A stretch of 64,000 bases of DNA from Sinomonas notoginsengisoli (GTDB lineage: Bacteria; Actinomycetota; Actinomycetes; Actinomycetales; Micrococcaceae), in assembly GCF_021554725.1 (NCBI RefSeq), contig NZ_JAIZDP010000003.1, positions 1 to 64,000 on the forward strand. Direction: 5' to 3'. The notes under the pieces are model-generated. The model made no database searches. It had not been told where the DNA came from and saw only the letters and a program-made list of their open reading frames with translations. How positions within the stretch are numbered: the stretch's first letter is position 1; each line of letters begins with the position of its first letter. A program made the translations under genes and the position numbers. Below are positions 2,125 through 64,000 of this stretch, one piece after another.

Positions 2125-2589
2125 TCAGCTGGCCTGCGGCGCCACTACATGGGCGACTTCCTTGAGCCGCGGCACGATGCGCCCTGCCCAGCCACTGCCC
2201 ATGATGGTACGCGCCATCTGGTCCCCGGGGTGGTCCGCGCGGTAGCCGGCCTGGACAACCGTGAGGCGGGTGCCGCCGTCGTGCGCCTCAAGCTGGAAGC
2301 TGACGGTCGTGGCCATGTCGTTCTCCGCGGACTCGTCCGCCCAGGAGATGACGAGCAGTTCGGGCTTCCTGAGCTCAAGCACTTCGCAGGCGATGACCCC
2401 CGAGAAGTGTGCGGCGGGAATGGGCTCGGTCCGGAAGTGGAACCGGTGCCCCACCGCCGGTGCGAAGTCGTTCGGCATGAGCCACTGCGCGAGGAGCTCC
2501 GGCGTGGTGAGGGCGCGCCACACGGCTTCCGGCGGCTGCGGGAGGAAATCCTCGACGCGGACTTGGGTGAGATCTGGGGTGTCAGTCAT
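2125..2589 (-). CDS. SRPBCC (AHSA1-like) domain protein
   Basis: A 154-residue START/Bet v1-like protein. It opens with VEDFLPQPPEAVWRALTTPE and continues with the usual LLAQWL and LVISW beta-helix-grip elements. Proteins of this family bind small hydrophobic ligands; no catalytic role can be assigned. Its ATG overlaps the 3' end of the ArsR gene by eight bases, so both are almost certainly one transcript. ArsR-SRPBCC pairs are common, with the regulator repressing its own operon. Confidence 0.85.
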   Translation of the reverse strand: MTDTPDLTQVRVEDFLPQPPEAVWRALTTPELLAQWLMPNDFAPAVGHRFHFRTEPIPAAHFSGVIACEVLELRKPELLVISWADESAENDMATTVSFQLEAHDGGTRLTVVQAGYRADHPGDQMARTIMGSGWAGRIVPRLKEVAHVVAPQAS

Positions 2590-2923
2590 GGTGCTGTTCC
2601 TTCTCCAGTAGGGCTGCGAGGCGCGGGAGGCGGCCCCGCCAGAACTGCTCGTACGGCTCGAGCCACGTGCGGAGGAGCTCCAGCGGCTCGGCGGTGAGGG
2701 AGTAGTAGCGGTGTCGCCCCGCCTGCCGCTCGTCGACGAGGCCGACGCCGCGGAGCACCTTGAGATGCTCGGCGACGCTCGGGCGCGCCATCTCGTAGCG
2801 GTCCGCGAGCGCCTGGGCCGTCTCGGGGCCGTCGAGCAGCGCGGCCAGGAGGTCACGCCGCACCGGGTGCGCGAGCGCCGCGAACACGTGGTCGGTTGGC
2901 GTTTCCTTGGACTGGCGGGGCAC
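2582..2923 (-). CDS. ArsR-family winged-helix repressor
   Basis: A 113-residue metalloregulator-fold repressor. The winged helix spans roughly residues 12-85, with recognition segment EMARPSVAEHLKVLRGVGLV followed by the wing RQAGRHRYYSL. No cysteine cluster is present, so it is of the SdpR-like, non-metal class that is typically paired with an SRPBCC protein. A perfect palindrome sits 12 bases before the start codon and is the likely autoregulatory operator. It overlaps the downstream SRPBCC gene. Confidence 0.9.
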   Translation of the reverse strand: MPRQSKETPTDHVFAALAHPVRRDLLAALLDGPETAQALADRYEMARPSVAEHLKVLRGVGLVDERQAGRHRYYSLTAEPLELLRTWLEPYEQFWRGRLPRLAALLEKEQHHD

Positions 2924-2935
2924 CCTCCATTTTAA

Positions 2936-2951
2936 GTAGGAAAAATCCTAC
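2936..2951 (-). promoter_or_regulatory. Palindromic operator before the ArsR-SRPBCC operon
   Basis: GTAGGA-AAAA-TCCTAC is a perfect inverted repeat with 6-bp arms and a 4-base spacer in an AT-rich patch directly upstream of the ArsR start codon. Position and symmetry fit binding of an ArsR homodimer. Confidence 0.7.
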
Positions 2952-3068
2952 GTGTCAATCCAACTCGGGCCAGCGAGACACCCGGGGGGCTCAGGGGGAA
3001 TACTTGGGAGGGCATCACAGTTGTAGCTTCAAGTAAGGGTTCGGACAGACTTCGGAAGGCACATCACA

Positions 3069-3713
3069 ATGAGCGACATCACCATCATCGGCACCGGCAA
3101 CATGGCCCGCGGCCTCGCGTCCCGCGCCCTCGCAGCGGGCAAGAGCGTCCAGCTCCTGGCCCATGAGGACAAGGCCAAGGCCGAGGCCCTCGCCTCCAAG
3201 CTCGGCGGCAGCGCGTCGGCGGGAGTGCTCGGCGATGCGATCGAGGGTTCCATCGTGATCCCGGCCGTCTACTTCGACGCCTCCAAGGCCATCGTCACCC
3301 AGTACGGCGACACCCTGGCCGGAAAGGTCTACGTGGACATCACCAACCCGGTGGACTTCTCGACCTTCGACAGCCTCGCCGTCTCGGCCGGTTCGTCCGC
3401 CGCCGAGGAGCTCCAGAAGCTCACGCCGGCCACCGTGGTCAAGGCCTTCAACACGACGTTCGCCGGCACACTCGTCTCCGGCGAGGTCTCCGGCCAGCAG
3501 CTTGACGTGCTCATCGCGGGCGACGACGAGGCCTCCGTCAAGGCCGTCTCCGACTTCGCCTCCGCCGCCGGCCTCAACGCCATCAACGTCGGCCCGCTGC
3601 GCCGCGCCCAGCAGCTCGAGCAGACCGGCTTCCTGAACATCCTGCTCTCCGCCAATGAGGCGCTTCCCGAGTACCAGTGGAACTCGGCCCTGAAGTTCCT
3701 CCCGGCGGTCTGA
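3069..3713 (+). CDS. F420/NADP-oxidoreductase-like dinucleotide-binding protein
   Basis: A 214-residue protein with an N-terminal Rossmann fold: ITIIGTGNMARGLASRAL (residues 4-21) matches the GxGxxA nucleotide-binding loop of the NADP oxidoreductase coenzyme F420-dependent superfamily. The rest has the matching order of segments, including YVDITNPVDF and VVKAFNTTFA. It is shorter than full F420:NADP reductases of some lineages but has the usual length for this actinobacterial group. The physiological partner cannot be inferred. A strong terminator follows 25 bases after the stop, so it is a single-gene transcript. Confidence 0.8.
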   Translation: MSDITIIGTGNMARGLASRALAAGKSVQLLAHEDKAKAEALASKLGGSASAGVLGDAIEGSIVIPAVYFDASKAIVTQYGDTLAGKVYVDITNPVDFSTFDSLAVSAGSSAAEELQKLTPATVVKAFNTTFAGTLVSGEVSGQQLDVLIAGDDEASVKAVSDFASAAGLNAINVGPLRRAQQLEQTGFLNILLSANEALPEYQWNSALKFLPAV

Positions 3714-3737
3714 GCCGCACCCGCATCACCGCACCAG

Positions 3738-4963: not shown

Positions 4964-4992
4964 CGAGGGGGACGGCGCCGTGAACCGCGGCG

Positions 4993-8447: not shown

Positions 8448-10019
8448 TCAGCGGTCGAGGGTGACCGTTCGCAGGTCGAGGCGGCGCAGCACGCGGTCGA
8501 CGAGCTCCGGGTCGTTGCCGGGCTCGTTGCGCGCGGCAAGCATCTCTCGGCGTGCCGCGTCCAGGGCATCACGCTGCGCGCGGTCCATCACCGCGAGCAC
8601 GGCTTGGACTCTGCGCATCTTCTCGGGGTCCTCCGCGTAGTCGGACTCGAGGATGGTGTGCAGCGAGGACATGCGGCGGGCCAGTGCCCTGCGGCGCCCT
8701 TCCGGGAGCTTCTGCGCGGCTGGCGAGGAGCGGAGGGCCTCGAGCGCCACGTGCTCGGCCCGACGCGCCAAGGCACGCTGGGCGCGTTCCTCTGCTCCAT
8801 GGTCGTCGGGCAGGTCGAGTACACGGATGAGCCATGGAAGGGTCAGACCCGGCAGCACGAGGGTGGCCACGAGGACCGACACCGCCGCCGCCACCACGAA
8901 GTTCCGCCCCGGAGTGGGCGAGCCGTCCGCGAGCGTGCTCGGAAGGGCGAGCGCCAGGGCCAGCGTGGCCAGGCCGCGCATCCCGCACCACGTCAGGACC
9001 ACGACCTCCTTGAGCGAGGCAGGGGTCTTCTCGCGGCGCTCGGTGCCGCCGATCGTGTACATGGCGTACATCCAGGCGAAGCGCACGGCGATGACCGTGG
9101 CACAGATGGCCGCGATTCCGGGGACGAACGTGAGCAGATTGGCGCCCTCGGCGTCGACCACGGAGCGCATCTCGATCCCCACCAGCCCGAACGCGACCCC
9201 CGTGGTGAGGAGCTCGAGCACCTCCCAGAAGGCCTGCCTTGTGAGGCGCTCCCCGGAATCCTGCGGACGGGCACGGCGCCCGAGCTCGACAGCGGTGACC
9301 ACCACGGCGACAACTCCCGAGCAGTGGACCACCTCGGCCAGAAGGTACACAGCGTAGGGCGCCACCAGCGTCGCCGCACTCCGAGCCACCAGGTTGGGCA
9401 CGAACTGGTTGAGCGCGCCAACCAGCCACGCCATCGCGAACCCGAGCAGCACCGCGCCTGCCGCGCCGACGAGGAAGCGCGGAGCGACGTCCCAGCCGAT
9501 CTGGCCGTGGTTGACGGTCGCCGTCACGGCCGTCTGGAAGATCACGATCGCCATGGCGTCGTTGAACAGGCCCTCGGTCTGGAGCACGGTCATGAGCCGC
9601 CGGCGCATCTTCACCTTGCCCGCGATCGCCTCTACCGCGACCGGGTCCGGCGGCGCCACCACCGCGCCCAGGGCGATCGCGAGCGGCAGCCCGATCACCG
9701 GCACAAGCCACCATGTCACTGCGGCGACGGCGGCGACTGTCGCGACGATGAGCAGGACCGCCAGGAGCACAAGGGACCGCCAGCGAAGCCGGAACACGCT
9801 CCAGCTCGAGCGCTGCGCGGCAGCGAAGAGGAGCGGCGGCAGGAAGAGCGGCAGGATGAGGTCCGGTTCGATGTGGACGGTGGGCACGAACGGCAGCGAG
9901 GCCGCGAGCCCGGAGAACACGAGCATGAGGATCGGATAGGGCAGGCGGATGCGCTCCCCGACACCCACGATGAGCACCGTCCCGAACAGCAGGCCGACCA
10001 CCAGCAGCAGAAAATCCAT
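8448..10019 (-). CDS. CPA1-type Na+/H+ antiporter
   Basis: A 523-residue membrane protein with about 11-12 hydrophobic helices over residues 1-410, then a charged cytoplasmic tail. The segments PPLLFAAA, GAVVAPPDPVAVEAI and TEGLFNDAMAIVIF match the ion-binding core (PDP, ND motifs) of the CPA1 sodium/proton exchanger family. It would extrude Na+ (or K+) against protons for pH and salt balance. It stands alone, convergent with the acyl-CoA dehydrogenase. Confidence 0.9.
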   Translation of the reverse strand: MDFLLLVVGLLFGTVLIVGVGERIRLPYPILMLVFSGLAASLPFVPTVHIEPDLILPLFLPPLLFAAAQRSSWSVFRLRWRSLVLLAVLLIVATVAAVAAVTWWLVPVIGLPLAIALGAVVAPPDPVAVEAIAGKVKMRRRLMTVLQTEGLFNDAMAIVIFQTAVTATVNHGQIGWDVAPRFLVGAAGAVLLGFAMAWLVGALNQFVPNLVARSAATLVAPYAVYLLAEVVHCSGVVAVVVTAVELGRRARPQDSGERLTRQAFWEVLELLTTGVAFGLVGIEMRSVVDAEGANLLTFVPGIAAICATVIAVRFAWMYAMYTIGGTERREKTPASLKEVVVLTWCGMRGLATLALALALPSTLADGSPTPGRNFVVAAAVSVLVATLVLPGLTLPWLIRVLDLPDDHGAEERAQRALARRAEHVALEALRSSPAAQKLPEGRRRALARRMSSLHTILESDYAEDPEKMRRVQAVLAVMDRAQRDALDAARREMLAARNEPGNDPELVDRVLRRLDLRTVTLDR

Positions 10020-10116: not shown

Positions 10117-10770
10117 TCAGGTGAGCGTGGCGGACGACGGCGAGTGGCCGCCGTCGTGCGCCGAGCCCACTTCACCGCGGGGACCGTCTTCCGTCATCAC
10201 CCATTCGAAGGCACGCGCACGGGAGCGGGCCCCCTGGGCGGTACGTGAGCGGTTCGGTTCCTCGAGGTCATGCAGGAGCGACTCCGACATGCGGACGAGG
10301 TCGGCGAGGACCTCCGGCGTGAACCAGCCCGGTCGGGTGGCGAACAGAATGTCCTCGCTCGAGGTGTTCCCGCTCGCCCCGGGCGCGAACGGACACCCGC
10401 CGAGGCCACCGAGCGCACCGTCGACCATCGCCGCACCGGCCTGGATCGCGGCGAGGGTGTTGGCAACTCCGAGGCCCCACGTGTCGTGGCCGTGGAAGAC
10501 GATCTCCCGCTGGGGAGATTCCTCCCTCACCCGCGAGATCAGGCCGGACACCTGGGCGGGGATCGCCTGACCGAGGGTGTCGCAGATGACGATGCCCTGG
10601 GCACCTTCGGTGCGGGGGTCGTTCGCAATCGCCAGAACCCGTTCCTCAGGCACCGGGCCGTCGAAAGGGCACGTGAAGGACGTGGCGATGCACAACTCAA
10701 TCTGGGCGCCGGCCTGCTGCGCGAGCGCGACCGCGGCGGGCATGGCCTCGAGGCTCGCCTCCGTGGTGCA
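10117..10770 (-). pseudogene. mvaB: 5'-truncated hydroxymethylglutaryl-CoA lyase
   Basis: About 218 codons align with the C-terminal two thirds of HMG-CoA lyase. The metal/catalytic stretch HGHDTWG and the G-loop with catalytic cysteine (GGCPFAPGASGN) are intact. The family is normally about 300 residues, and roughly the first 90-100, including the N-terminal catalytic segment, are missing. Recognisable homology starts at TTEASLEAM, some 20 bases after the stop of the upstream permease pseudogene, with no spacer room for a normal 5' end. A deletion has probably joined the two genes. An ATG at 10743 could still start a short protein, but it would not be an active lyase. Confidence 0.75.
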
Positions 10771-10786
10771 AGGGTGAGAGCGACGG

Positions 10787-12230
10787 TCACGCGGGCGCGT
10801 GGCCGGCGTCGTGCGCGGGGACGACCCGGCGCGCGGCCCTCCGATTCACGAACGGGTAGACCACGAGCAGGAGCGCGAGGGCGCCGAGGCTGAGCCAGAC
10901 TTGAGGAGCGGCGTCGGGATCGAAGGCCATGAGCACGACGATGAGCGCCACCGCACCAAGGACAATGGCGTTGAGCCACGGGTGCAGCCACATCTTCAGG
11001 GTCAGCCCGGCCCGCTCGGCTGCGCTCATGCGGTTGCGGAGGCGCCACTGGGTGACCGCGACGAGCGTAGACGAACAGCGCCACGCAGCCGGCGGAGTTC
11101 ATGATGAAGTCGAAGACGTCCTTGGGCGCAACGTAGTTCGCCGCGATCGCCAGGTAGCCCACCACGGTCGAGAGCAGGATGACCTTCCACGGCACACCCG
11201 CGCGGTTGCGGTCCTCGACCCAGCGCGGGGCGTAGCCGTGCCTGGACAGGGCGAACAGCATGCGCGAGCCCGAGTAGAGCCCCGAGTTGAGCACGGAGAG
11301 GGCTGCGGTGAGCACTACGGCGTTCATGATCTGCTCGGCGCCCGGGAGCCCGAAGCGGCCGAATGCGAAAGCGAAGGGGCTGACCTTGGCCGGCAGCTCG
11401 TCCCACGGGACGACCATGAGCAGGATCGCGACCGAACCGACGTAGAAGAGGAGGATGCGCCAGACCACGGTATTCGTGGCCTTCGCGACGCCCTTGGCGG
11501 GCTGGTCCGATTCAGCAGCGGCCATCGTGACGATCTCGGTGCCGAAGTAGCTGAAGATCACGACGGCGACCCCGTTGAACACGGCGGCCCAGCCGTGGGG
11601 CATGAACCCGTGGTCGGTGATGTTGGAGATAGACCCGGTGGAGCCGGGGATGATGCCCAGGACGTAGAGGGTGCCGACGCCGAGGAACACGACGATCGTG
11701 GTGACCTTGATCGAGGCCAGCCAGAACTCCGTCTCGCCGAACGAGCGCAGACTCATGAGGTTCGTGAACGTGAACACGAGCATGCCGCCGAGCGCGAATG
11801 TCCAGTCGGGAACAGTGGGGAACCACTCGTGGAAGATCCGGCCGACCACGACGGCCTCGAAGGCGACGACGCCGACCCAGAAGTACCAGTAGAGCCACCC
11901 GATCGTGAATCCGGCCCAATTGCCGAGGCCGTCCCGGGCGTACTCCATGAAGGAACCGACCACCGGCCGGTTCGTGGACATCTCCCCCAGCATGCGCATC
12001 ACGAGGACGACGAGGGCTCCCCCGATCGCGTACGAGAGCAGCGCGGCGGGGCCCACGCTGCGGATCACCGAGCCCGAGCCCACGAACAGGCTCGCGCCGA
12101 TGATGCCGCCGAGGGCGATCATGGTCAGATGCCGAGGCCGTAGCTGTCCGCGGGGGCCGGACTCCGTTGTCCGGGCCTCGGGGACTGCGTCGTCTCGGGT
12201 GGGCGCTGCGAGGTTGTCTGGTGCCTGCAT
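10787..12230 (-). pseudogene. Amino-acid permease (AAT family) with frameshift
   Basis: From the ATG at 12230 (GGAG upstream) the product reads as a GabP-like amino acid:H+ symporter: MIALGGIIGASLFVGSG, GWLYWYFW, FSYFGTEIVTMAAAE, SGSRMLFALSRHG. After FVYA at about 11067 the frame breaks. The natural continuation VAVTQWRLRNRMSAAERAG and two final helices (to 10787) lie in another frame, and the total length is 3n+1. Either one extra base or a two-base loss in the CGAGCG stretch at 11060-11070 explains it. It may be a true pseudogene or a read error. It is followed directly by a truncated mvaB. Confidence 0.75.
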
Positions 12231-15329: not shown

Positions 15330-16775
15330 CTAGGTTCGGAGTGCGAGCCAGAGGTGCGCCGCCACGTCGGGATCGTCGAGGTCGACGCCCAAAAGTTCTG
15401 CGGACCGCGCGATGCGGTGCCGCACTGAGTTCCGGTGCACTCCGAGATCACGGGCGGTGGCCTCCCACTGGCCGCGGTTCTTGAGGTACGCGCGCACGGT
15501 GGGCAGGATTTCGCCACCGGCGTCTGCGAGCGCTGCGGCCCACTCATCGGCCGGAAGCTCAAGCCCATGCCCCACCCGGACCACCCTGCCTGATGGCGCC
15601 TGCCCTGCGGCGTCGGCCACTTGCCCCGCAATCTCGCGGACGCGGCGCAGCGGAACCGGCCCGCCCCACGCCCCGCGCACACCAGGGGCCAGCCGGGGTC
15701 TGGAGGTGTCAGCGGGCAGGAGCATGTAGACGCGGCCGCCGAGCTCGAAGCCAAGCGGTCCCTCCGCGGTGGCACCCGACGGCTGAGGGGCAGCCGCCGA
15801 TTCAACGAGGACCGCGAGGTAGACGGTCTCGGGGAGCGCCCAGCCGAGCTGTCCCGCGAGGAGGCGCGCGGCGTCGTCGTGCCCGGCGAGCACAAGGGCC
15901 ACGAGCATGCCCCCGCTCCGGGCCCGCTCCTCCTCGGCCCGGCGCAGGCCAGCTGCGCGGTTCGCGAGGAGCGTCGAGGCCGTGAGGAACAGGTGCCGCT
16001 CGGCAGGAGCCAGCTGGCCGCCGCGCCCCAGGGCGAGGTACGCGACGGGTCCGGCCCCGTCCGACACCGGGTAGAGGGCCGCAGGTCCGGACGCGAGCTG
16101 CACCGTGGCCGTCGCGCCGCGGCCACCGGCCCGCAGCGCCGCAGCCTCACCGAGCAGCTCGGCCACGAGCCCCGCGGGGACGCCCCGACCGTCTGCGGGG
16201 CCGCCTGCCGCGCCGGGTCCCGCGCACGACGGCGCGGCGCCGCCTTCCGGGAGGTATGCCACCCAGGTGCCGAGAGCGTGGGCGAGCTCGCGCACGATGG
16301 CGGGCTCAGCGTCGTCCTTCGCAGCGGCGCGGGTGAGCGCGACCTGGAGGCCGAGCAGCGCGGTCAGCTCGGCCGCTCCCCCGCGTCGCACGAGTTCCCA
16401 GTAGGCGCGGGACACGGCGAGGAACGGCGATTCGCGTGGGACGGTCAGCAGCGGAAGGCCCGCATCGACGCAGGCCGCCCGGAGCTCGTCCGGAACCATG
16501 CTGTGGCCCGAGCCGAGACCGAGTCCGAGCGCCGCGACACGTCCCTCGACGAGCCTCTGCACATAGGAGCGGGCGCCCTCCGCGCGCGTCTGGGCGTCGG
16601 TTCCCGTGAGCTGCATCCCCACCGTGAGGAGCAGTTCACCGCCGTCGAGAAACACCGTGGGGTCCTCGAGCTCGGAAACGTGCACGCCCGTGAGCTCGAC
16701 GCGCGGGAGCGGCACCGGCCAGTAGGGGACCAGGTCCCCGTGAGCGGCGTCCGCAAGCTGGGCGAGCGTGATCAC
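15330..16775 (-). CDS. PucR-family transcriptional regulator
   Basis: About 481 residues. An N-terminal PucR domain (LAQLADAAHGDL...GVHVSELEDP...GGELLLTVGM) is followed by a central GGDEF-like region and a C-terminal HTH_30 domain, with VRAYLKNRGQWEATARDLGVHRNSVRHRI. The GTG at 16775 follows a GAGCGGGGG ribosome-binding site; longer frames lack one. It is divergent from the aminotransferase operon at 16919 and upstream of the DHA2 transporter, so it probably controls one or both. Such regulators often sense the catabolised amine or purine. Confidence 0.85.
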   Translation of the reverse strand: MITLAQLADAAHGDLVPYWPVPLPRVELTGVHVSELEDPTVFLDGGELLLTVGMQLTGTDAQTRAEGARSYVQRLVEGRVAALGLGLGSGHSMVPDELRAACVDAGLPLLTVPRESPFLAVSRAYWELVRRGGAAELTALLGLQVALTRAAAKDDAEPAIVRELAHALGTWVAYLPEGGAAPSCAGPGAAGGPADGRGVPAGLVAELLGEAAALRAGGRGATATVQLASGPAALYPVSDGAGPVAYLALGRGGQLAPAERHLFLTASTLLANRAAGLRRAEEERARSGGMLVALVLAGHDDAARLLAGQLGWALPETVYLAVLVESAAAPQPSGATAEGPLGFELGGRVYMLLPADTSRPRLAPGVRGAWGGPVPLRRVREIAGQVADAAGQAPSGRVVRVGHGLELPADEWAAALADAGGEILPTVRAYLKNRGQWEATARDLGVHRNSVRHRIARSAELLGVDLDDPDVAAHLWLALRT

Positions 16776-23739: not shown

Positions 23740-24402
23740 CTAGGTGCCCCGCAGCTGTGTGAGCACGGCTGGGTCGGCACCAACCGAGGCGAGCCGCGCC
23801 TCGATCGCCTTCAGCGCACGCCCATAGGGCGCGTTCGAGTCCAGGAGCAGCGAGCGGTTGTTCGCCTCGTTGAACACCGCGTCGATCTCGAAGGCGAGCT
23901 GCGCGGCGTCGTCCAAACCGGGCAGCTCGCCAAGATCCATCGCCGTCTGGACCGCATGGGCGAGGTAGGAGTCCCAGTCCCGGAGGGCATCGGCGAGCGC
24001 GTCGCGAACCGGCCCTGGCTGTGCGTCGAACTCAACAGCGGTGGTCTGGAAGAAGCAGCCGCCAGCGAATACTCGACTCCGTGAGTAGTCGAGCCAGAGG
24101 CGCACGACGGCGCACAGTCGCCTGAGCCCGCGGGGCTCGCCATGGGCGGGGGTGAGAATGCGCTCCACGAAGATCCCGCGCGCCGCAACGACCGTTGCGA
24201 GCTGCAGCGCCTCCTTCGTCCCGAACAGGGCGCCGACGCCGCTCTTGCTAGCCCCGACGGCCGTCGCCAGCCGCCCGATCGACAGGCCCTCGAGGCCCTC
24301 GACCGAGGCTAAGTTGATCGCCTCGGCGAGGACCGCTCGGCGCGACTGCTCGCCGCGCGCCTTGCGCCCGTCCACGTGGACCGTGCCTTTAACCGTTGTC
24401 AC
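23740..24402 (-). CDS. TetR-family regulator
   Basis: About 220 residues. The N-terminal helix-turn-helix covers RRAVLAEAINLASVEGLEGLSIGRLATAVGASKSGVGALFGTK in three helices, and the rest is an all-alpha ligand-binding domain with TetR_C-like features. The GTG at 24402 has GGGGAGG seven bases upstream; an ATG at 24444 would begin inside the operator region. It is divergent from an alpha/beta hydrolase and flanked by palindromes, so it probably represses that hydrolase and itself. Confidence 0.82.
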   Translation of the reverse strand: MTTVKGTVHVDGRKARGEQSRRAVLAEAINLASVEGLEGLSIGRLATAVGASKSGVGALFGTKEALQLATVVAARGIFVERILTPAHGEPRGLRRLCAVVRLWLDYSRSRVFAGGCFFQTTAVEFDAQPGPVRDALADALRDWDSYLAHAVQTAMDLGELPGLDDAAQLAFEIDAVFNEANNRSLLLDSNAPYGRALKAIEARLASVGADPAVLTQLRGT

Positions 24403-35385: not shown

Positions 35386-36256
35386 AACACGCGCCCCCGC
35401 CCTGCGCGCCCGGACCTTCCTCTGCATGGGCACGGTCGTGAGCCTGACGGTGCCTGTGCCGCACGGTTCCGACGAGGCCGGAACGGCTGGTCACCGGCTC
35501 GACACCGCAGTCTCCGTCGTCGAGGATCAATTCGGGGCGCTCGAGGCGCAGTTCAGCCTGTTCGTCCCTGCCTCGGAGGCGAGCCGGATCGTGCGCGGTG
35601 AGCTCTCCCTGACGCAGGCGAGCCCCCTCATGCAGGAGATGTACAACGATGCGGTCGGCTGGCGGCACCGCACTGACGGCGCATTCACCCCCGAGCGGCC
35701 CGACGGCGCGCTCGATCTCAGCGGGCTCGTCAAGGGGTACGCGATCGCCGAGGCAGGGAGGTCCCTCGCGGCCTCGGGGCTGCACGACTGGTGCCTCAAT
35801 GCCGGTGGCGACGTTCTCGTCTCCGGCTCGCCGGCGGCGTCGGGCTCCTCGGCCCCCGCATGGCTCGCAGGCATTGTGGACCCCGCAGACCGCAGGACGC
35901 TGGTGGGCGCGTATCCCCTCGGAGGCGCAGCAGCCCATCGACTGGCCCTCGCGACGTCCGGCTCGGCCGAGCGCGGCGACCACATCTGGACCGTCGGCAT
36001 GCGCGGTGGTCCCGGCCGTGCGGGCGGTGCAGCCCGGCCCGAGTTCGTCCAAGTGAGCGTGGCGGCCGAGGACATCGTCACCGCGGACGTGCTCGCCACC
36101 GCAATCGTGGCTGGCGGCCGCGCCACTCTTGATGCCGTCACCTCGCGCTGGGACGTGGAGGTGCTGGCCATGGCGCACGACGGCGCGCTGCTCGCCACGC
36201 CGGGATTCCGCGCCCCGAGCGCGGTGCAGCTTCCCTGCGCGGCGATGCGCCCCTAG
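35369..36256 (+). CDS. apbE: FAD:protein FMN transferase
   Basis: About 295 residues, ApbE family. CMGTVVSLTVP near the start, LDLSGLVKGYAIAEAGRSL, NAGGDVLVSG and DHIWTVGM with nearby Asp/Thr for Mg2+ give the usual order of motifs. It hydrolyses FAD and attaches FMN to a Thr in partner proteins, here clearly the FMN_bind protein encoded just upstream. The start is uncertain (ATG 35369 or 35336); both overlap the previous gene. Confidence 0.9.
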   Translation: MLPTSETRAPALRARTFLCMGTVVSLTVPVPHGSDEAGTAGHRLDTAVSVVEDQFGALEAQFSLFVPASEASRIVRGELSLTQASPLMQEMYNDAVGWRHRTDGAFTPERPDGALDLSGLVKGYAIAEAGRSLAASGLHDWCLNAGGDVLVSGSPAASGSSAPAWLAGIVDPADRRTLVGAYPLGGAAAHRLALATSGSAERGDHIWTVGMRGGPGRAGGAARPEFVQVSVAAEDIVTADVLATAIVAGGRATLDAVTSRWDVEVLAMAHDGALLATPGFRAPSAVQLPCAAMRP

Positions 36257-38051: not shown

Positions 38052-38578
38052 GGTGCCTCCCCGCCGTCGTGCGCTGCCGTACCCAGAAGGCGCTGGCGAG
38101 AGGGGTCGCGGAAGATCCAGCTCTCGTCCTGCAGGCGCCCCACGATCTTCTCCCCGATGGCGGAGAGCCGCGCCACATCCTCCGGACCGAGGGCATCGAA
38201 GACGAGCTGCCGCACTCGCTCCACGTGCTCCGGGGCGAGGTCCACGATCGTCTCCCAGCCGGCGTCGGTGAGATGCGCGGTGGTGACGCGGGCGTCGTCG
38301 GGCGAGGGCTGGCGGTCAATCCAGCCGCGCGCCTGGAGCTTCGTCACCACGTGCGAGAGCCGCGAGAGCGACGCCGACGTCCGGGACGCGAGCTCCTTCA
38401 TCGGCAGCATGCGGCCCTCGGCCTCCGAGAGCATCGCAAGCACGTTGTAGTCGAACAGGGACAGCTTGTTCAGCTGCGTCAGGTGCGCGTCCAGCGCGGC
38501 AGGCAGCAGGGTGTTCACGCTCAGCAGGGCAAGCCAGGCGCGGCGTTCCTGGGCACTGAGCCAGCGGGGTTCAGTCAC
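38048..38578 (-). CDS. MarR-family regulator
   Basis: About 176 residues with the MarR winged helix: LFDYNVLAMLSEAEGRMLPMKELASRTSASLSRLSHVVTKLQARGWIDR, then the wing with SPDDARVTTAHLTDAG. The start is most likely GTG 38578 (VTEPRWLSAQERRAW); no strong ribosome-binding site is visible. It forms an operon with the SGNH hydrolase. Confidence 0.85.
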   Translation of the reverse strand: MTEPRWLSAQERRAWLALLSVNTLLPAALDAHLTQLNKLSLFDYNVLAMLSEAEGRMLPMKELASRTSASLSRLSHVVTKLQARGWIDRQPSPDDARVTTAHLTDAGWETIVDLAPEHVERVRQLVFDALGPEDVARLSAIGEKIVGRLQDESWIFRDPSRQRLLGTAAHDGGEAP

Positions 38579-40108: not shown

Positions 40109-40138
40109 CGCACGACGGCGCCCGCTCGCCGTCGTGCG
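40109..40138 (+). terminator. Inverted pair of the iterated 12-mer, terminator-like
   Basis: CGCACGACGGCG (40109-40120) and its exact complement CGCCGTCGTGCG (40127-40138) form a 12-bp hairpin with a 6-base loop, four bases after the phosphoesterase stop. No U-run follows. The same 12-mer recurs elsewhere in the window. Confidence 0.65.
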
Positions 40139-42310: not shown

Positions 42311-43456
42311 TCAGCTCTGCATCGTGAACCGCGCTGCCGTGCGCTCGCCGAGCCACGGGACACGGTACAGCGCGCTGAACGCGGCGTTGCGGGCGGCCAT
42401 GAGCCCCGCCGGAAGCCCCCGTCCGAGGGCCATGTTGAGCCTGGCCTGGCGCGCGGCGAGCCGGGCGGCGCCCAGCCGCTCGCGCTCGGCAGCCCCCCAC
42501 AGCTCGGGCCAGGTGGAGCCCGGGCGGCCCCCAGATCCAACCCTCACCTCCGCGGCAACGAGCGGCGCGAAGGCTTCCGCGTCGAGCCAGCCGAGCGTCA
42601 TGCCCTGGCCGCCAATCGGGCTGACCTCGTGCGCGGCGTCCCCCGCGAGAAGAACGCGGCCGAGGCGCATCCGCGCGGCGAGCCGCTCCGTGACGGTGAA
42701 GGCGCTGAGCATCGTGCACGTAGCGGGGTCGAGCCGCGAGCCTGTGCGCTCCTCGACGATCCGGGCAAGGTCCCGAGCGGAGGGGTCGACGGCCGGCGCG
42801 TCGAGGTGCAGGACCCATCTTCGCACCCCCGCTGGAAGGGGGAACGACTCCACGATGCCGCCCGGCTCAAGGTGCAGCACCGCTCGCGGCCCGTCCTCTG
42901 TCGCATCGGTGAAGTCGCCCATGAGGTAAGCGTCCTTCAGGGAGGTGCCGTAGACGGGGACTCCCAGACTCGCGCGGAGCGCCGAGCGCGCGCCGTCCGC
43001 CGCGACGAGCCAACGCCCGCCGATCCGCGCCCCACCCTCGCAGCGCACGACGGCGCCGTCCTCCTTCCGCTCTGCCCGCACCGCGCGCACGCCCTGCCGC
43101 AGGGCCCCAGGAGCGAGCTCGGCGAGGCGGGCCTCGAGCGCGTCCTCAACGGCCCACTGGGGCACAGCGAGCACGGGCGGATCAAAGCACAGGCGTGCTA
43201 CTTCACGGGTCCGGCCTGAAGCGCGAGACCGCGCAACCCCCTCACGGATCCGTACGCCCTGCTCGAAGAGGGCCCCCGCGACACCGGCACGGTCAAGCAC
43301 ACGCAGCCCCGGCGGGTGGATGCCGATAGCCCGTGAGTGCCTCGTCCGTTCGGTGCGGGCCTCGAGCACGCGGACGTCGAGGCCGGCCTGGGCGAGCAGC
43401 ACGGCGAAACACAGGCCCGCGGGGCCGCCGCCCACCACGACGGCGTCATGCTCCAC
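42311..43456 (-). CDS. FAD-dependent monooxygenase of the type III PKS locus
   Basis: About 381 residues, UbiH/PHBH-like. HDAVVVGGGPAGLCFAVLLAQAGLDVRVLEAR is the FAD dinucleotide fold, LVAADGARSALR the DG motif and LGRVLLAGDAAHEVSPIGGQGMTLG the GD motif. The GTG at 43456 is the best start, 15 bases after the PKS stop. Such oxygenases hydroxylate the alkylated phenol or resorcinol made by the neighbouring type III PKS. It is convergent with gluQRS. Confidence 0.83.
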   Translation of the reverse strand: MEHDAVVVGGGPAGLCFAVLLAQAGLDVRVLEARTERTRHSRAIGIHPPGLRVLDRAGVAGALFEQGVRIREGVARSRASGRTREVARLCFDPPVLAVPQWAVEDALEARLAELAPGALRQGVRAVRAERKEDGAVVRCEGGARIGGRWLVAADGARSALRASLGVPVYGTSLKDAYLMGDFTDATEDGPRAVLHLEPGGIVESFPLPAGVRRWVLHLDAPAVDPSARDLARIVEERTGSRLDPATCTMLSAFTVTERLAARMRLGRVLLAGDAAHEVSPIGGQGMTLGWLDAEAFAPLVAAEVRVGSGGRPGSTWPELWGAAERERLGAARLAARQARLNMALGRGLPAGLMAARNAAFSALYRVPWLGERTAARFTMQS

Positions 43457-43470
43457 GACTCCTGCCCCGG

Positions 43471-44686: not shown

Positions 44687-45802
44687 CTAGAGCACCCCCG
44701 CGGCCTCGAGCTGCGCCGCGAGTCCTGCACCGTCCGGCGCCGACGTCCAGACGACGTCCGGGCGGGGGGTGGCCCCGTCGCCGTCGTGCGTGGTACCGCC
44801 CGCGAAGACCGCCTGCCCCGGGGACAGCTCCCGCACCGCGACGGCGGCGACCGATTCCGGATGCTCGGCGGCGAACTCGGCGTAGATGGACTCGTCATGC
44901 TGGCCGTTGTCCCCGATGAGGAGCCAGCGGATGTCCGGGAACTCGGCAGCGAGCCGCATGAGGTTCTCGCGCTTGTGCTCACGGCCTGAGCGGAACCAGC
45001 GGTCGGGAGTCATCCCCCAGTCCGTCAGCAGGAGCGGGCCAGCCGGGTACAGGTTGCGGCCCAGGAAGCGCTGGAGGGTCGGGGCCGCATTCCACGGCCC
45101 CGTGGAGAGGTACACCATCGGCGCCTCGGGATGTTCCGCGGCGAGCCGGTCCAGCAGCACGGCCATGCCCGGCGTCGGCGTGCGGGCCCGCTCGCTCAGC
45201 ACGAACGTGTTCCACAGTGCCAGGAACGGGCGCGGGAGGGCGGTGACCATCACTGTGTCGTCGATGTCCGAGACCATCCCGAACCGTGCGCCCGGATCGA
45301 CAATCTGGACCTGGGCGGTAGACGGCTCCGCTCCGTCGGCGCTCATGCGCACCTCGTGCCAGCCCGGCTCGAGCTCAACGTCCACAAGCGCGTCCACGAC
45401 GCCGCCCCCGTCCGCGCGCACGACGGCGCGGCTCGCCCCGATCTCGACCCTCACCTCGGCGTGCTGGATCGGCACCGACGTGAACGAGACCCAGCCGCGG
45501 AAGTTGTTGAACGCGTCCTGCGCCCCGTGTAGGCCCGGCCTCGAGTAGAGGACACGGCCGAGCACCCGCACCCGGCGCGTGGAACCATATCCGCGGTAGG
45601 CGACAACCTGCGCCACGTAGTCCCCATGCCTCGCCTGCCGCGTGCGCAGGTCATTCCACGCCTGTCCGAGGCGCCGCGCCACATGGAAGAGGGGCTTGAG
45701 CCGCGGGGTGCCCGCCCGTTCGGCCGCGGCATCGGCGTCCTCGACGTCAGAAGTCTGAGGGCCGGGGGCGTGGAGGACGCCATGGGAGTACTGCGCTGTC
45801 AT
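44687..45802 (-). CDS. App1-type phosphatase domain protein (DUF2183)
   Basis: A 371-residue protein with a C-terminal HAD-like App1 catalytic domain: VSDIDDTVMVTALP contains the DxDxT, VYLSTGPWNAAPTLQRFL and LIGDNGQHDESIYAEFA give the other motifs. The N-terminal half is a beta-rich region (YRGYGSTRRVRVLGRVL). The homologue in yeast is a phosphatidate phosphatase; the bacterial substrate is not established. GGGAGAG precedes the ATG at 45802. Confidence 0.87.
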   Translation of the reverse strand: MTAQYSHGVLHAPGPQTSDVEDADAAAERAGTPRLKPLFHVARRLGQAWNDLRTRQARHGDYVAQVVAYRGYGSTRRVRVLGRVLYSRPGLHGAQDAFNNFRGWVSFTSVPIQHAEVRVEIGASRAVVRADGGGVVDALVDVELEPGWHEVRMSADGAEPSTAQVQIVDPGARFGMVSDIDDTVMVTALPRPFLALWNTFVLSERARTPTPGMAVLLDRLAAEHPEAPMVYLSTGPWNAAPTLQRFLGRNLYPAGPLLLTDWGMTPDRWFRSGREHKRENLMRLAAEFPDIRWLLIGDNGQHDESIYAEFAAEHPESVAAVAVRELSPGQAVFAGGTTHDGDGATPRPDVVWTSAPDGAGLAAQLEAAGVL

Positions 45803-45854: not shown

Positions 45855-47264
45855 TCACGCGCGCGCAAGTTCCTCGATGTCCTCGAGGAAGGCGGCCGCG
45901 ACGTCCTCGCTCACGGTCGTCTTCGTCTCGGCGATGGCCTCGAGGTAGTCCTCCGTGCTGGGGCCGCGCCGCACACCACTAACGAAGGCTTCCCCTGCAG
46001 CGGCGCCGGAGACGCCCTGGGCGACCAGACCGGCGTCGTCCGCGGGCTCCCGGTGCAGGGCGCCACCCGCCGCTGGCGAGCCCGCCATGCCGAGCACGGG
46101 CGCGGGCTCCGCCGCGTAGACGGCCTTCTCGAGGGCACGCTGGGACGCCGACCGCGCGGCGAACTCGATGTCCGCCGGGGAGAAGCCCTCGGTGCGGGCC
46201 ACCAGCGCCTCCACATCCACCTCCGCAAGGACCGCCTCGGGGATGAACCGCTCCCACATGGACCGGCGGGCCTCCGCATCCGGCAGGCCGATCGGGATCA
46301 CGTAGTCGAAGCGGCCGTGCCGCAGGAACGCGGAGTCGAGCGCCCGGATGAAGTTCGTCGCGCAGACCAGGAGCCGGCCCGGCTGCTCGCGGAACGCGGG
46401 GATGATTTTGAGCAGCTCATTGGTGACGCCCTGGTTGGGGCTCGGCGGGTCTCCCGCGCGGTGGGAGGCGATTTCCTCGACCTCGTCCAGGAACACCACG
46501 GCGTGCTCGAGTTCGGAGATCTCGAGGAACGTCTTCCGCAGGGCCCCCGCGAGCCCCTCGGGATCACCGGCGAGGCGTGAGGGGAACACCTCGACGAACG
46601 GCCACTCCAGCCGGGACGCAATCGCCTTCGCGAACGTCGTCTTGCCCGTCCCGGGCGGACCGAACAGCACGACGGCGCGCGGCGGCACCACCCCGAACTC
46701 GTCCGCGAGCTCCGCCTGGGCCAGGGGCAGGACGAGCCGGCGCTCGAGCAGCTGCTTCTCCCGCTTCATGCCCGCCACCCGGTCCCACAGGTCCCGCGGC
46801 AGCACGCGGCCGCCCAGCTGTGCGAGCGGCTCGAGCTCCGTGCGGGCCACCGGGATCTGCCGCTCGAAGAAGCGCAGGTTCTGCACGTCCTTGAACCCGC
46901 GGGAGAGGAACGCCTCGAGCCGCGTCTCGGTGTCCGGCATGAGGGCCGAGAGCTTGGTCAGGCCCAGCGGGGCCATGCGGTTCTCGAGCGCAGCGAGCAG
47001 CGCGGTCCCAATGCCCCGCGAGCGCCACTCAGGCAGCGTGGCCAGGAAGACGATCCAGCCCTGCTCGTGCGCGGCGCGTCCCACCGCCGCTCCGACCACG
47101 TCCTCGCCGTGCAGGGCCACGACAGCGACGTCCTTCTGGCAGGATGCGAGCACCTCCGAGAGCGAGTACACGGGCTCGATCCCCGAGGCCGTCATTGCAC
47201 TCCAGAGCAGCAGGATCCCGTCGAGGTCCGAGGGGTGGAAATCCCTGATCCGCCACGTGGTCAT
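45855..47264 (-). CDS. GNAT acetyltransferase fused to AAA+ ATPase
   Basis: A 469-residue two-domain protein. Residues 1-140 form a GNAT domain with the acetyl-CoA loop RSRGIGTA (81-88). Residues about 185-380 form an AAA+ module of the FtsH/CDC48 type: Walker A GPPGTGKT (202-209), Walker B VVFLDEVEE (256-264), sensor CATN (301-304), Arg finger in RHGRFD (315-320) and a C-terminal helical lid (FSPADIEFAARSAS). A roughly 85-residue tail follows. GGAG precedes the ATG at 47264. The combination suggests ATP-driven remodelling linked to acetylation; no substrate can be named. Confidence 0.85.
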   Translation of the reverse strand: MTTWRIRDFHPSDLDGILLLWSAMTASGIEPVYSLSEVLASCQKDVAVVALHGEDVVGAAVGRAAHEQGWIVFLATLPEWRSRGIGTALLAALENRMAPLGLTKLSALMPDTETRLEAFLSRGFKDVQNLRFFERQIPVARTELEPLAQLGGRVLPRDLWDRVAGMKREKQLLERRLVLPLAQAELADEFGVVPPRAVVLFGPPGTGKTTFAKAIASRLEWPFVEVFPSRLAGDPEGLAGALRKTFLEISELEHAVVFLDEVEEIASHRAGDPPSPNQGVTNELLKIIPAFREQPGRLLVCATNFIRALDSAFLRHGRFDYVIPIGLPDAEARRSMWERFIPEAVLAEVDVEALVARTEGFSPADIEFAARSASQRALEKAVYAAEPAPVLGMAGSPAAGGALHREPADDAGLVAQGVSGAAAGEAFVSGVRRGPSTEDYLEAIAETKTTVSEDVAAAFLEDIEELARA

Positions 47265-47448: not shown

Positions 47449-48228
47449 CTAACGTAGCCAGGCGCCAGCGGTGCCGAACAGCGCGAGCGTGCCGCCGGCC
47501 GCCCACAGGAGTCGGCGGCCGTGCGCCCGCATCACGGCGGTGTGCAGGGTGCCGAAGGACATGCGGGTCGCGGACGGGTCATCCGCGGGGGCGCTCGCGT
47601 GGCCCCACGTGGCCGGCTCCGCCGCGAGCGCTGCCAGCTGCTCGGCGTCGGCCTCCTCCAACGCCTTGGCCTGCTTGGTGAGCCAGCGGCGCAGCTGCCC
47701 GTCCGTGACCACGGCGGCGCCCTCGGCGGGACGGCGGATCGTCACCCGGCGCGGGGCCACGAGCACGACGGCGCCCCGCACCGGGACCTCCCGTCCAGCC
47801 GCATCCCCGAGGATCTTCGAGACGCGCTGCGCCTCGTGGGCCGAATTCCGCAGGTACTTCTGGTGCTGGCCGTTGACCATGAGGACGCTCCCGGCAACCC
47901 AGACGTCCTTGCCTGCGTGGTTCTTGGTATTGAGGGTGAAGACGCCGCCGGGACCGACCACGAGGTGGTCGATGTCCGCGCCGCGCGTGCCCACGGGGAT
48001 CGAGTGGAGCACGTGCCACTCGGGACCGAGCTTGGCCAGTGCCCGGGCCACGCGCATCTCCCCGACGGCGCCCGCGTACCAGCTGCGGGCCTCGGGCGCT
48101 AGCGGGTTGGCTCCGAACAGTTTCGCGAGGCCCCGGCGGCGCGGTGTGCCGGACTGGAGTCGGAGCGTCTCGACCATGACGGCCTGCCCTGCGACGCGTG
48201 CCCTGAGCGGGCCGGTCATGAAATCCAC
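47449..48228 (-). CDS. NERD-domain protein
   Basis: About 259 residues. The NERD nuclease-related domain is clear: GEMRVARALAKLGPEWHVLHSIPVGTRGADIDHLVVGPGGVFTLNTKNHAG, which has the E-D-(N/E)xK pattern. A C-terminal hydrophobic helix (LLWAAGGTLALFGTAGAW) anchors it to the membrane. GTG 48228 follows AAGGGGA with five bases of spacing; the frame is open to 48279. NERD proteins are thought to act in DNA processing, but no activity can be claimed here. Confidence 0.83.
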   Translation of the reverse strand: MDFMTGPLRARVAGQAVMVETLRLQSGTPRRRGLAKLFGANPLAPEARSWYAGAVGEMRVARALAKLGPEWHVLHSIPVGTRGADIDHLVVGPGGVFTLNTKNHAGKDVWVAGSVLMVNGQHQKYLRNSAHEAQRVSKILGDAAGREVPVRGAVVLVAPRRVTIRRPAEGAAVVTDGQLRRWLTKQAKALEEADAEQLAALAAEPATWGHASAPADDPSATRMSFGTLHTAVMRAHGRRLLWAAGGTLALFGTAGAWLR

Positions 48229-49233: not shown

Positions 49234-49857
49234 ATGGACGGCAACGAGCTCTGGGGCCACATCCACACCGAACGCGCGGCGCTCGCGAGCCTCCTATGGC
49301 GGCTCCCGCCCGAGCAGTGGAACGTCCCGAGCCTCTGCCCCGGCTGGCGGGTCCGGGATGTCGCGGCGCATATCATCTCGGCCCCGCAGACCACGCCGTG
49401 GGGCGCCGCGGCGGCCGTTATGCGCGGGCGCGCGGACTTCAACCGGATGGTCCTCATCGAGGCCCAGCGCCGCGGATCGCGGCCGGTGACCGAGATCCTC
49501 GGCGACTACCGGCGGTTGGCCACCACGCGGCGTCGTGCGCCCGGAACCGGCGGCACCACCCCTCTCCTCGACGTCCTCGTCCACACCCAGGACATCGCGA
49601 TCCCGCTCGGCCTCGAGCACCGCATGCCTGTCGACGCCGCCGCAGCCTGCGCCGACCAGGTGTGGCGGGTCGCCTTCCCGTTCAACGCACGACGGCGGCT
49701 AGCCGGCTTCGGCCTGCGGGCCACCGACGTGGACTGGCAGTCCGGGAACGGGCCTGCCGTCGAGGGGCCGATGGAGGCCCTTCTCCTGCTGCTCACCGGG
49801 CGCCGGGCGTGGCTCAGCCGCCTGGCGGGTCCGGGCTCAGCATCCCTGAAACCCTGA
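49234..49857 (+). CDS. Maleylpyruvate isomerase/DinB-like protein (TIGR03083 type)
   Basis: About 207 residues. The N-terminal four-helix DinB-like fold has WNVPSLCPGWRVRDVAAHIISAP, the typical CPGWxVRDVxAH pattern of the mycothiol-dependent maleylpyruvate isomerase N-terminal family, with metal-ligand histidines at AAH and VHTQDIAIPLG. It probably uses mycothiol as cofactor in an isomerase or transferase reaction. AGGGGG precedes the ATG at 49234. It is divergent from MarR. Confidence 0.8.
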   Translation: MDGNELWGHIHTERAALASLLWRLPPEQWNVPSLCPGWRVRDVAAHIISAPQTTPWGAAAAVMRGRADFNRMVLIEAQRRGSRPVTEILGDYRRLATTRRRAPGTGGTTPLLDVLVHTQDIAIPLGLEHRMPVDAAAACADQVWRVAFPFNARRRLAGFGLRATDVDWQSGNGPAVEGPMEALLLLLTGRRAWLSRLAGPGSASLKP

Positions 49858-60373: not shown

Positions 60374-60447
60374 GAGACGAGCCTACGCTTTCCGGCGCAC
60401 GACGGCGCGGCCCACCCACGTCCCGCGCTCGCTCACGCTGGGGCGGG

Positions 60448-62361: not shown

Positions 62362-62553
62362 GCCGGGGACCTTTCATCGAAGGCGCGCGCTGGCCAGCGC
62401 TCGACTGGTAGCTGGACGCTCTGGGACCGTACAGGCGTGACGGGAATGACTCCTGAACTTTTGATGAACGGAGAATGACGGCGGAAGGCGGCGGCACGTC
62501 GGCCCACGGCATTGGGCCTCGTACTGTCGCACCCAGCGATTAGGCTGGAGGGC

Positions 62554-63078
62554 ATGGTCGGGAAGTTCTTCGGGTCACTCTTCGGGGGTGCCGGGCGCGA
62601 GCCTGAGCGTGCCCTCGACGAGCAGCTGCCGCTCACACAGGCGGAAGAGCTCGAGCAGACGCGCGCCGCTCTCGGCGTCCTGCGCAGCGCTGTCCGCCGT
62701 GCGGGCGCCCTCCTGCCGACGCTCGCCTCCTCGCGAGTGCGCCAGACCGATGACATCCTCGCCAACCTCATCGACTACATCGCCGAGAACGGGGCCTCGA
62801 CCGAGCAGCGCGTCCTCCTCAATGCGATCATCACCGACTACCTGCCCACGTCCCTGCGCGTGTACCGGGCGCTCCCGCCCGAGACGCACACGGACACCAG
62901 CCCCGAGTCGGAGAAGCTGCTCGAGCAACTCGACATCCTGCACTCGACGGCCCTGGACCTCGACCACCAGGTGCGCACCGGTGCGATCGCCGAGTTGAGC
63001 GTCCACGGCCGCTTCCTGCAGGACAAGTTCGACGTCGGAGGCATCCGCCTCGCCCCCGGAGAAGGAGAGATGCACTGA
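62554..63078 (+). CDS. Hypothetical protein coupled to TerD 4
   Basis: A 174-residue helical protein, MVGKFFGSLFGGAGREPERALDEQLPL, followed by long alpha-helices (LEQTRAALGVLRSAVRRAGALLPTLASS) and no membrane segment beyond a short Gly/Phe start. I do not recognise a family. GGAGG lies just before the ATG. Its TGA overlaps the next ATG by one base (TGATG), so it is made with the TerD protein. Confidence 0.7.
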   Translation: MVGKFFGSLFGGAGREPERALDEQLPLTQAEELEQTRAALGVLRSAVRRAGALLPTLASSRVRQTDDILANLIDYIAENGASTEQRVLLNAIITDYLPTSLRVYRALPPETHTDTSPESEKLLEQLDILHSTALDLDHQVRTGAIAELSVHGRFLQDKFDVGGIRLAPGEGEMH

Positions 63079-63653
63079 TGGCCACGATGGTCGCGGGCAG
63101 CAACGCACCGCTCACCGCGGAGAACCCCGGCCTCGGCGGAGTGATGGTCGCCATGGGCTGGCAGATGGTCCCGAGCAACGGCCCCCAGTCCGAGCTGACG
63201 TCCATGGCGATCCTGTGCGGCGAGAACGGCCAGGCTCTCTCCCCCGAGCACCTCGTGTTCTTCAACCAGCTGACGACGGCGGGCGGCGGCGTCCGCTTCG
63301 ACGGTGACGCCGGCGCTGGCGCCACCGCTGCACATGACGTGGAACAAGTCGACGTCGAGTTCTCGCGTGTCCCGGCCGAGGTCTCCAAAATCGCCTTCCT
63401 GGCCTACGTGGACCCGGAGGTGCGCGGCCCTGGGACCTTCGGTGCCGTGCGCAGCGCCTACATCCGGCTCGCCCGGCCGGACGGTTCCGAGCTGCTGCGC
63501 TTCGATGTCCCCGAGGTCCAGGGCGAGCGCATCAAGGCCATGATGTTCGGCGAGCTGTACCGGCACCGCGACGACTGGAAGTTCCGCGCACTCGGACAGG
63601 GGTACGAGAACGGGCTTACCGGGGTGGCCCGCGACTTCGGGCTCGATCTCTGA
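63078..63653 (+). CDS. TerD-domain protein 4, divergent
   Basis: A 191-residue TerD-like protein: VAMGWQMVPSNG, FFNQLTTAGGGVRFDGDAG, VRSAYIRLARPDGSELLRFDVPEVQGERIKAMMFGELYRHRDDWKFRALGQGY. The fold matches, but the acidic Ca2+ sites differ: the DLDAS segment is ELTSMA, and the GEGDDE loop is replaced by ATAAHDVEQ. It probably does not bind calcium in the usual way. It is coupled by one-base overlaps to genes on both sides. Confidence 0.82.
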   Translation: MATMVAGSNAPLTAENPGLGGVMVAMGWQMVPSNGPQSELTSMAILCGENGQALSPEHLVFFNQLTTAGGGVRFDGDAGAGATAAHDVEQVDVEFSRVPAEVSKIAFLAYVDPEVRGPGTFGAVRSAYIRLARPDGSELLRFDVPEVQGERIKAMMFGELYRHRDDWKFRALGQGYENGLTGVARDFGLDL

Positions 63654-64000
63654 TGAAGGGGCTGCGCGGCTCCGACGTGCCCTTCATGACCCGGCGCGTG
63701 AGGGAACCGGCGGTCGGGCAATCCCGCGTCCAGGGCCGGCCCGGCTCCGCTCAGCCGCCGTCCGTCCAGCCGCGGTCCTCAGGCCTCGACCTGTCCCCAC
63801 GATCGGCGGTCGAGCCCAGCCAAAGCTCTGGGCCGGCGGCGACGGAACCCGCGTCTGTCGAATCGCGGCTCTACCCGGCTCCGGCGTTCGGCGGGCTCCG
63901 CCAGCTCTCGGCGAGCAGCGCCGTCGTGCGTCTGAACCCGCGGCAGTCGGGAATCGGCTCGCTGTTCGTCACGGGCGCGCGCGGCACCGCATGGGAGGGC
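63653..64000 (+). CDS. Partial gene coupled to TerD 4, cut by the window edge
   Basis: The ATG at 63653 overlaps the previous stop (TGATG), and the frame stays open to the edge (116 codons). The translation starts MKGLRGSDVPFMTRRV and continues with a Pro/Ser/Gln-rich linker and RLNPRQSGIGSLFVTG near the edge. No family can be assigned from this part. Its place in the TerD operon is the only clue. Confidence 0.6.
   Translation, partial: MKGLRGSDVPFMTRRVREPAVGQSRVQGRPGSAQPPSVQPRSSGLDLSPRSAVEPSQSSGPAATEPASVESRLYPAPAFGGLRQLSASSAVVRLNPRQSGIGSLFVTGARGTAWEG

Follow-up and report, generated by a model that had tools for sequence, protein, structure and literature searches.

Why should one 12-mer recur throughout a stretch of 64,000 nucleotides of the Sinomonas notoginsengisoli genome (Micrococcaceae; contig NZ_JAIZDP010000003.1, positions 1 to 64,000; hereafter the window)? 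An earlier note, made from these letters alone, claimed 14 exact copies of CGCACGACGGCG and two AGCACGACGGCG variants, and all were recovered where it had placed them (Table 1), with 8 exact copies on the plus strand and 6 on the minus strand. One hundred dinucleotide shuffles of the window yielded a mean of 0.17 copies and at most 2, and window sites with one mismatch or less numbered 27 against a shuffle mean of 4.4. No 12-mer of the window is more over-represented than CGCACGACGGCG under a third-order Markov model (14 versus 0.17). Collectively, the genome comparisons described below suggest that the motif is a candidate DNA uptake sequence of independent origin, like those of Neisseriaceae and Pasteurellaceae. 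Drawn from genome comparison, this assignment is given a probability of roughly 0.6.

The excess extends to the whole host genome (3.59 Mb in 32 contigs), which carries 333 copies, 161 forward and 172 reverse, and 4 copies (3 + 1) of the reversed word. As a control the reversed word proved too weak, and Markov, codon, permuted-word and outward-pair controls were added. Host analyses employed an 854-kb sample consisting of 790 kb of genome plus the window. This sample contains 81 copies versus 2.2 and 3.3 predicted by Markov models of order 3 and 5, respectively, which bears out the claimed departure from chance, and here too CGCACGACGGCG is the most over-represented 12-mer. Density is about 93 per Mb for the 12-mer and about 140 per Mb for its 11-mer form, the latter reaching 221 per Mb in the relative G002. 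The window holds about 2.4 times the genome mean (14 versus 5.9, Poisson p 0.003), an excess that is expected because the window was picked for the motif.

A word of this kind could arise in high-GC DNA as an artefact of composition or codon use, and the core does contain GAC GGC codons. As had been claimed, the window copies occupy several reading frames and intergenic DNA: by the home-made gene calls used throughout, 9 of 14 are in genes (5 sense and 4 antisense; peptides AHDG, THDG, APSCA, AVVR and NARRR) and 5 are intergenic. In the host sample 48 of 81 copies are genic and 33 intergenic, a roughly threefold concentration in intergenic DNA, which makes up 13.8 percent of the sequence. In G002, where 13.3 percent of the sequence is intergenic, the 115 copies divide into 66 genic and 49 intergenic. 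Models trained on intergenic DNA predict 0.13–0.44 copies versus 32 seen in the host and 0.13–0.43 versus 49 seen in G002. Genic copies are found in all six phases, two of them most often, and sense to antisense ratios of 27/21 (host) and 38/28 (G002) indicate no strong strand preference.

The earlier assertion that codon use does not explain the motif stands in part. Shuffling synonymous codons within genes leaves a clear excess of coding copies, 48 versus 6.6 in the host and 66 versus 11.7 in G002, but part of this coding excess is generic because G030, a genome from outside the family, also displays a 3.5-fold excess. Relative to synonymous shuffles, the 11-mer is 6.8-fold over-represented in the host, 6.6-fold in G002 and 3.5-fold in G030 (25 versus 7.2), and the 12-mer 8.3-, 6.3- and 3.6-fold (5 versus 1.4 in G030). 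Intergenic copies, pairs, conservation and dialects therefore carry most of the case. The intergenic excess is not generic: a single one of 26 G030 11-mers is intergenic, and the Markov model reveals no enrichment of the motif in that genome (5 versus 3.9). Codon baseline also inflates raw counts of the GGA spelling introduced below (in genes, 37 versus 19.8 in G030, 43 versus 12.0 in G007 and 28 versus 7.8 in G011). As the whole explanation for the GCA dialect, an artefact of composition or codons is excluded; it is responsible for some of the coding copies and some of the GGA words counted. Oriented pairs and conservation in the relative R1AF57 speak against it as well, and as an account of the motif it is extremely improbable.

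Motif copies are arranged with respect to each other and to genes. Neighboring pairs within 60 bp are inward inverted in 9 of 10 cases in the host and 19 of 22 in G002, several with perfectly extended stems, and the inverted pairs can form terminator-type stem-loops, as judged by pairing and folding. For the two pairs of the window the folding energies are -32.6 and -29.0 kcal/mol, in both cases better than all 200 shuffles (z -5.4 for 40109/40127 and -4.6 for 10131/10149). The 8-mer CGACGGCG tops the inward-pair excess among 8587 8-mers of the host (20 versus 4.2, with 2 outward) and 7674 of G002 (32 versus 8.4, with 12 outward); it ranks 44th in G030 and 24th when G007 and G011 are pooled. 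Intergenic 11-mers gather near the ends of genes, with 36 of 43 distances to an adjacent 3' end below 80 bp in the host and 49 of 59 in G002, compared with 38 and 36 percent of random intergenic points, respectively. The strict word is densest where neighboring genes converge and sparsest where they diverge. This concentration at 3' ends, along with the strong hairpins, is what a transcription-factor or nucleoid-protein site, or a family of terminator hairpins with stray half-copies, would produce. Such an origin is nonetheless unlikely: 20 of the 81 strict host copies have a partner of at least 10/12 on the hairpin side, most copies being single; the 48 coding copies lie in all phases; and no intergenic class is poorer in the motif than the gaps from which genes diverge, which is where promoters are located.

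An uptake sequence is the best fitting of three readings originally offered for the repeat; a HIP1-type repeat and a segregation or architecture motif fit poorly. HIP1 of cyanobacteria is a highly iterated palindromic octamer. The Sinomonas motif is likewise a highly iterated short word, but CGCACGACGGCG differs from its own reverse complement and its close pairs adopt one orientation. Chi and FtsK-orienting polar sequences (KOPS) are defined by strand polarity from origin to terminus. A chromosome-scale protein site, whether Chi, KOPS or a nucleoid-organizing site, would be compatible with a non-palindromic word at the density given above, spread over the stretches examined. G002, however, a single contig that starts with dnaA, dnaN, gyrB and gyrA, displays no replichore polarity over the roughly 800 kb of this one complete genome that was surveyed: 49 plus and 45 minus copies over the 600 kb that begin at dnaA, and 10 and 11 at 2.6–2.8 Mb. 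These balanced strands, and the lack of a strong gene-strand preference, render a chromosome-scale site very improbable.

The motif was first described as a 12-mer. The word is indeed abundant, but positions 1, 3 and 10 tolerate change and the unit is not fixed. Single-substitution counts in the host, G002, G007 and G011 delimit a core, CGACGnCG, in which CGACG (positions 5–9) and CG (positions 11–12) are nearly strict. Tolerated changes in the host and G002 are C and then A at position 10, G at position 3 and A at position 1. In G007 and G011 position 10 changes mainly to A; there CGCACGACGGCG is scarce and GGACGACGGCGG is in excess. Across 15 Sinomonas genomes two dialects, GCA and GGA, are evident, with GCACGACGGCG/GGACGACGGCG counts spanning 974/300 to 151/722. 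Mainly GCA are the host (502/224), G002 (974/300), G003 (754/301), R1AF57 (804/290) and ASV486 (759/287). Mainly GGA are S. albida (151/722), ASV322 (256/694), G010 (242/552), G011 (173/482), S. humi (217/499) and G007 (181/448). Two S. atrocyanea genomes (438/321 and 425/331) and G013 (464/317) are intermediate, and S. mesophila (G012) carries both dialects (606/575). Named species and strains were equated with G handles through their identical counts. The nine best matches of an APP1-domain protein encoded in the window are all from Sinomonas, six of them 77–84 percent identical and three 65–66 percent. Judged from these protein identities alone, dialect appears to agree with phylogeny, the three GGA-type named records being the most distant Sinomonas.

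Comparison with 80 kb of R1AF57, in which 10 of the 16 window 11-mer sites are alignable, shows the motif to be conserved in this one close relative. Eight of the 10 sites are identical and 2 carry the tolerated G-to-C change amid flanks that are 61–89 percent identical; permuted 11-mers are identical at 8 of 50 sites (Fisher p 1.7e-4). In the reverse direction, 15 R1AF57 sites comprise 8 identical, 2 with a tolerated change, 3 with another single substitution (flanks 88–96 percent identical) and 2 with more, and none is gapped. In this two-genome comparison, motif sites are either gained or lost through substitution. An alignment of 187 kb with the more distant G007 (78 percent identical) captured turnover between dialects. 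Thirty-one host GCA sites correspond in G007 to 3 identical sites, 5 with C-to-G at the dialect base, 2 with another single change, 13 with two or more and 8 gapped, and 27 G007 GGA sites correspond in the host to 3 identical, 5 with the reverse dialect change, 3 with another single change, 9 with two or more and 7 gapped. The dialect base thus accounts for 5 of 7 single-mismatch sites in one direction and 5 of 8 in the other, far above chance. No dialect change was seen in this alignment at 11 host GGA sites and 7 G007 GCA sites. A word that has no role in uptake could also spread in the manner of HIP1, either as the target of an enzyme that modifies or repairs DNA or through a mutational bias specific to the sequence. 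This would accommodate copies that are scattered in their hundreds among unrelated flanks, spelling that differs between clades, and turnover by substitution. Against this, the word is no palindrome, and it is not obvious how a mutational bias would give rise to inward pairs, concentration at gene 3' ends or the identity of 8 of 10 R1AF57 sites within diverged flanks. We regard such an origin as decidedly unlikely.

Genes for natural transformation are present. Micrococcus luteus, also a member of the Micrococcaceae, needs ComEC and Flp pili for transformation (PMC4322843, PMC6370729). ComEC was detected in 15 of 15 Sinomonas genomes and 37 of 38 genomes overall (the G011 match is in pieces on two contigs), and Flp pilins in 15 of 15 Sinomonas versus 5 of 23 other relatives. 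The host encodes a nine-gene Flp/Tad run at C1:1064307-1071642: eight scanned genes (Flp, TadE, Tad, RcpC, a ParA-type ATPase, T2SSE and two T2SSF) and, from a separate Flp search, a second Flp. A host ComEA with SLBB and helix-hairpin-helix domains adjoins ComEC. T2SSF was dropped as a discriminating competence marker, being found in 148 of 149 genomes.

An uptake-type function is judged likely because the combined profile matches that described for the DNA uptake sequences (DUS) of Neisseriaceae: a tolerant, non-palindromic word on both strands and in all phases, with oriented pairs, gene-end clustering, turnover by substitution, conservation in a close relative, reciprocal dialects and competence genes. 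The motif would mark DNA as self in natural transformation, retained at hundreds of sites while its spelling drifts into dialects that differ between clades. Motif-bearing DNA may be preferred by ComEA or by a surface component of the Flp/Tad pilus. Tagged DNA of the same kind would then be taken up and recombined more often, and the motif would build up wherever it is tolerated, for example at gene ends and synonymous sites.

Uptake sequences have been described for Pasteurellaceae and Neisseriaceae (PMC7811141); among the papers listed by a literature search, no earlier description of this motif or of uptake sequences in the Sinomonas group was found. Neisseriaceae DUS resemble the motif as non-palindromic words of 10–12 bp that are the most abundant repeat of their genomes, with fixed-core dialects that follow phylogeny and inverted pairs linked to terminators (PMC3630211). 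The same source describes two dialects in near-equal numbers in Simonsiella muelleri, as found here in S. mesophila. DUS differ in being of unrelated sequence, and Sinomonas belongs to the Actinobacteria and has Flp/Tad genes. The GCCGTC common to DUS GCCGTCTGAA and CGCCGTCGTGCG we take for chance. Pasteurellaceae uptake signal sequences (USS) share with the motif wide dispersal, over-representation, a split into two dialects and conservation of an inner core (PMC12616744); they are unrelated in sequence and host group. A type IV minor pilin is the predicted USS receptor. The Flp/Tad transformation system of M. luteus comes from the same family and likewise has comEA, comEC and tad genes (PMC4322843, PMC6370729); the main text of PMC4322843 lacks the term 'uptake sequence', and no report of an uptake tag was encountered there.

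Several observations weigh against assignment of the motif as an uptake sequence. Coding excess is partly generic and only about twice that of the outgroup G030, which lowers our confidence. Composition-matched 8-mers are themselves mildly inward (126 versus 67 outward in the host, 173 versus 105 in G002), in part from words that overlap the motif; weak cases of pairing are therefore not to be over-read. In 400 kb of G007, core pairs are 4 inward versus 7 outward, and in the whole G007 genome 81 versus 40. In distant G007, 3 of 31 host sites are exact, a share that does not exceed the one for permuted words (8 of 116, Fisher p 0.70), and 59 site alignments at nine named loci in two relatives gave 16 identical and 17 gapped. 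Density is below that of Neisseria, N. meningitidis having about 1900 DUS in 2.2–2.3 Mb (PMC3630211). On the side of the machinery, ComEC and T2SSF are nearly universal (37/38 and 148/149), pair excess is only weakly correlated with T2SSF copies at the genus level (rho 0.36, p 0.04), and G021 (genus g8) has a strong motif excess and no Flp pilin match. Genus g31, finally, is rich in single copies and lacks an inward-pair excess.

How far the motif extends was gauged with 149 Micrococcaceae genomes, sampled evenly across the family, of which 107 with at least 10 core pairs were retained and 42 with fewer were dropped. Inward core pairs exceed outward pairs in 104 of the 107 genomes (2 opposite, 1 tie) and, with Sinomonas removed, in 97 of 100 (2 opposite, 1 tie). 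Inward-pair excess passes the Bonferroni threshold in 18 of 32 genera; g25, g35, g36 and g37 have almost no core pairs. The 11-mer outnumbers the reversed word by a wide margin in several genera, g8, g10, g31, g34 and g38 being the clearest cases. Restriction of the motif to Sinomonas was rejected, as the 11-mer and inward pairs are raised in many other genera of the family. Much of the Micrococcaceae may carry one old uptake-sequence system with the core CGACGGCG, genus-specific dialects and Flp/Tad-based reading, lost in some genera; this we hold only tentatively, at somewhat below even odds. To our knowledge, such a family-wide system, if true, would be the first tag of its kind outside two Gram-negative families, and one read by Flp/Tad rather than type IVa pili.

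If the uptake assignment is correct, tags of this type would be a novelty in this branch of the bacteria. Their independent appearance among high-GC Gram-positives, with a different pilus, would mean that DNA self-tagging evolves repeatedly. The two natural dialects would aid the search for a receptor, and why tags accumulate would become testable in a new group. A practical transformation tag for environmental Actinobacteria could also result.

Table 1. Motif copies, variants and inverted pairs in the window, with their state in R1AF57 where aligned
Feature	Position	Strand	Context	R1AF57
Motif copy	2274..2285	-	Coding sense (AHDG)	
Inverted pair	10131..10160		Left arm CGGACGACGGCG, one mismatch; right arm exact, 10149-10160(-); 6-nt loop; in gap between minus-strand genes 8448-10019 and 10539-12122	
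Motif copy	16223..16234	+	Coding antisense (PSCA)	11-mer identical
Motif copy	24101..24112	+	Coding antisense (AVVR)	
Motif copy	36174..36185	+	Coding sense (AHDG), ApbE-family gene	11-mer identical
Motif copy	38062..38073	-	Coding sense, close to gene 3' end	Tolerated G-to-C variant
Exact inverted pair	40109..40138		40109+ and 40127-; 6-nt loop; 4 nt past phosphoesterase-family gene 38773-40104	
Motif copy	43044..43055	+	Coding antisense	11-mer identical
Motif copy	44779..44790	-	Coding sense, APP1-domain gene	11-mer identical
Motif copy	45417..45428	+	Coding antisense, APP1-domain gene (also holds the 44779 copy)	11-mer identical
Variant AGCACGACGGCG	46666..46677	+		11-mer identical
Variant AGCACGACGGCG	47762..47773	+		11-mer identical
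Motif copy	49686..49697	+	Coding sense (NARRR)	Tolerated G-to-C variant
Motif copy	60396..60407	+	Within 74-bp gap between two minus-strand genes	
Motif copy	63919..63930	-	Intergenic by the gene calls used, near window end	11-mer identical

Individual genomes and loci displayed further features. S. mesophila G012 (locus L014) has the most inward pairs of all 149 genomes, 234. G021 (2.9 Mb) contains 183 11-mers versus 4 reversed words, and 39 inward versus 3 outward pairs. The g31 genomes G052, G080 and G104 have 95–379 11-mers, with 55 inward versus 50 outward pairs. An apparent Arthrobacter-group dialect, ACGACGGCG (251 versus 36–94 expected), was rejected as 50 copies of one orthologous region, and no clear dialect of that group was left at these 50 loci once similar contexts were removed. 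The loci (L018–L088) also carry the palindrome TAAGTATACTTA at 34 places in about 25 distinct contexts (68 when summed over strands, 0.1 expected), possibly the operator of a regulator in the region. The first 400 kb of G007 (L129–L148) contain a different repeat, AGCCGTACCCGAAA, with 9 copies versus 0.0 expected.

Motif-poor stretches were also encountered. G002 has no motif of the G/C-variant set at 20–60 kb (L170, C1:20001-40000, onward), where 13.5 are expected. The 20–40 kb portion, the only part scanned for families, encodes an IS481-type transposase and TIR- and RyR-domain genes, and the stretch is possibly a defence or mobile island. The host has 1 motif versus 8.7 expected at 800–840 kb. 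Within it L109 (G000:C1:800001-820000), the only part scanned for families, is motif-free with a GC content of 0.62 and encodes three DUF6541 proteins, a GlfT2-like galactofuranosyltransferase, an ABC-2 transporter and a GH25/LGFP protein; it is probably a surface-polysaccharide locus. The host stretch at 200–220 kb is likewise motif-free despite normal GC content and coding density. Within the window itself, a type III polyketide synthase adjoins an FAD-dependent monooxygenase-like gene at 42311-44598, perhaps as a small biosynthetic cluster.

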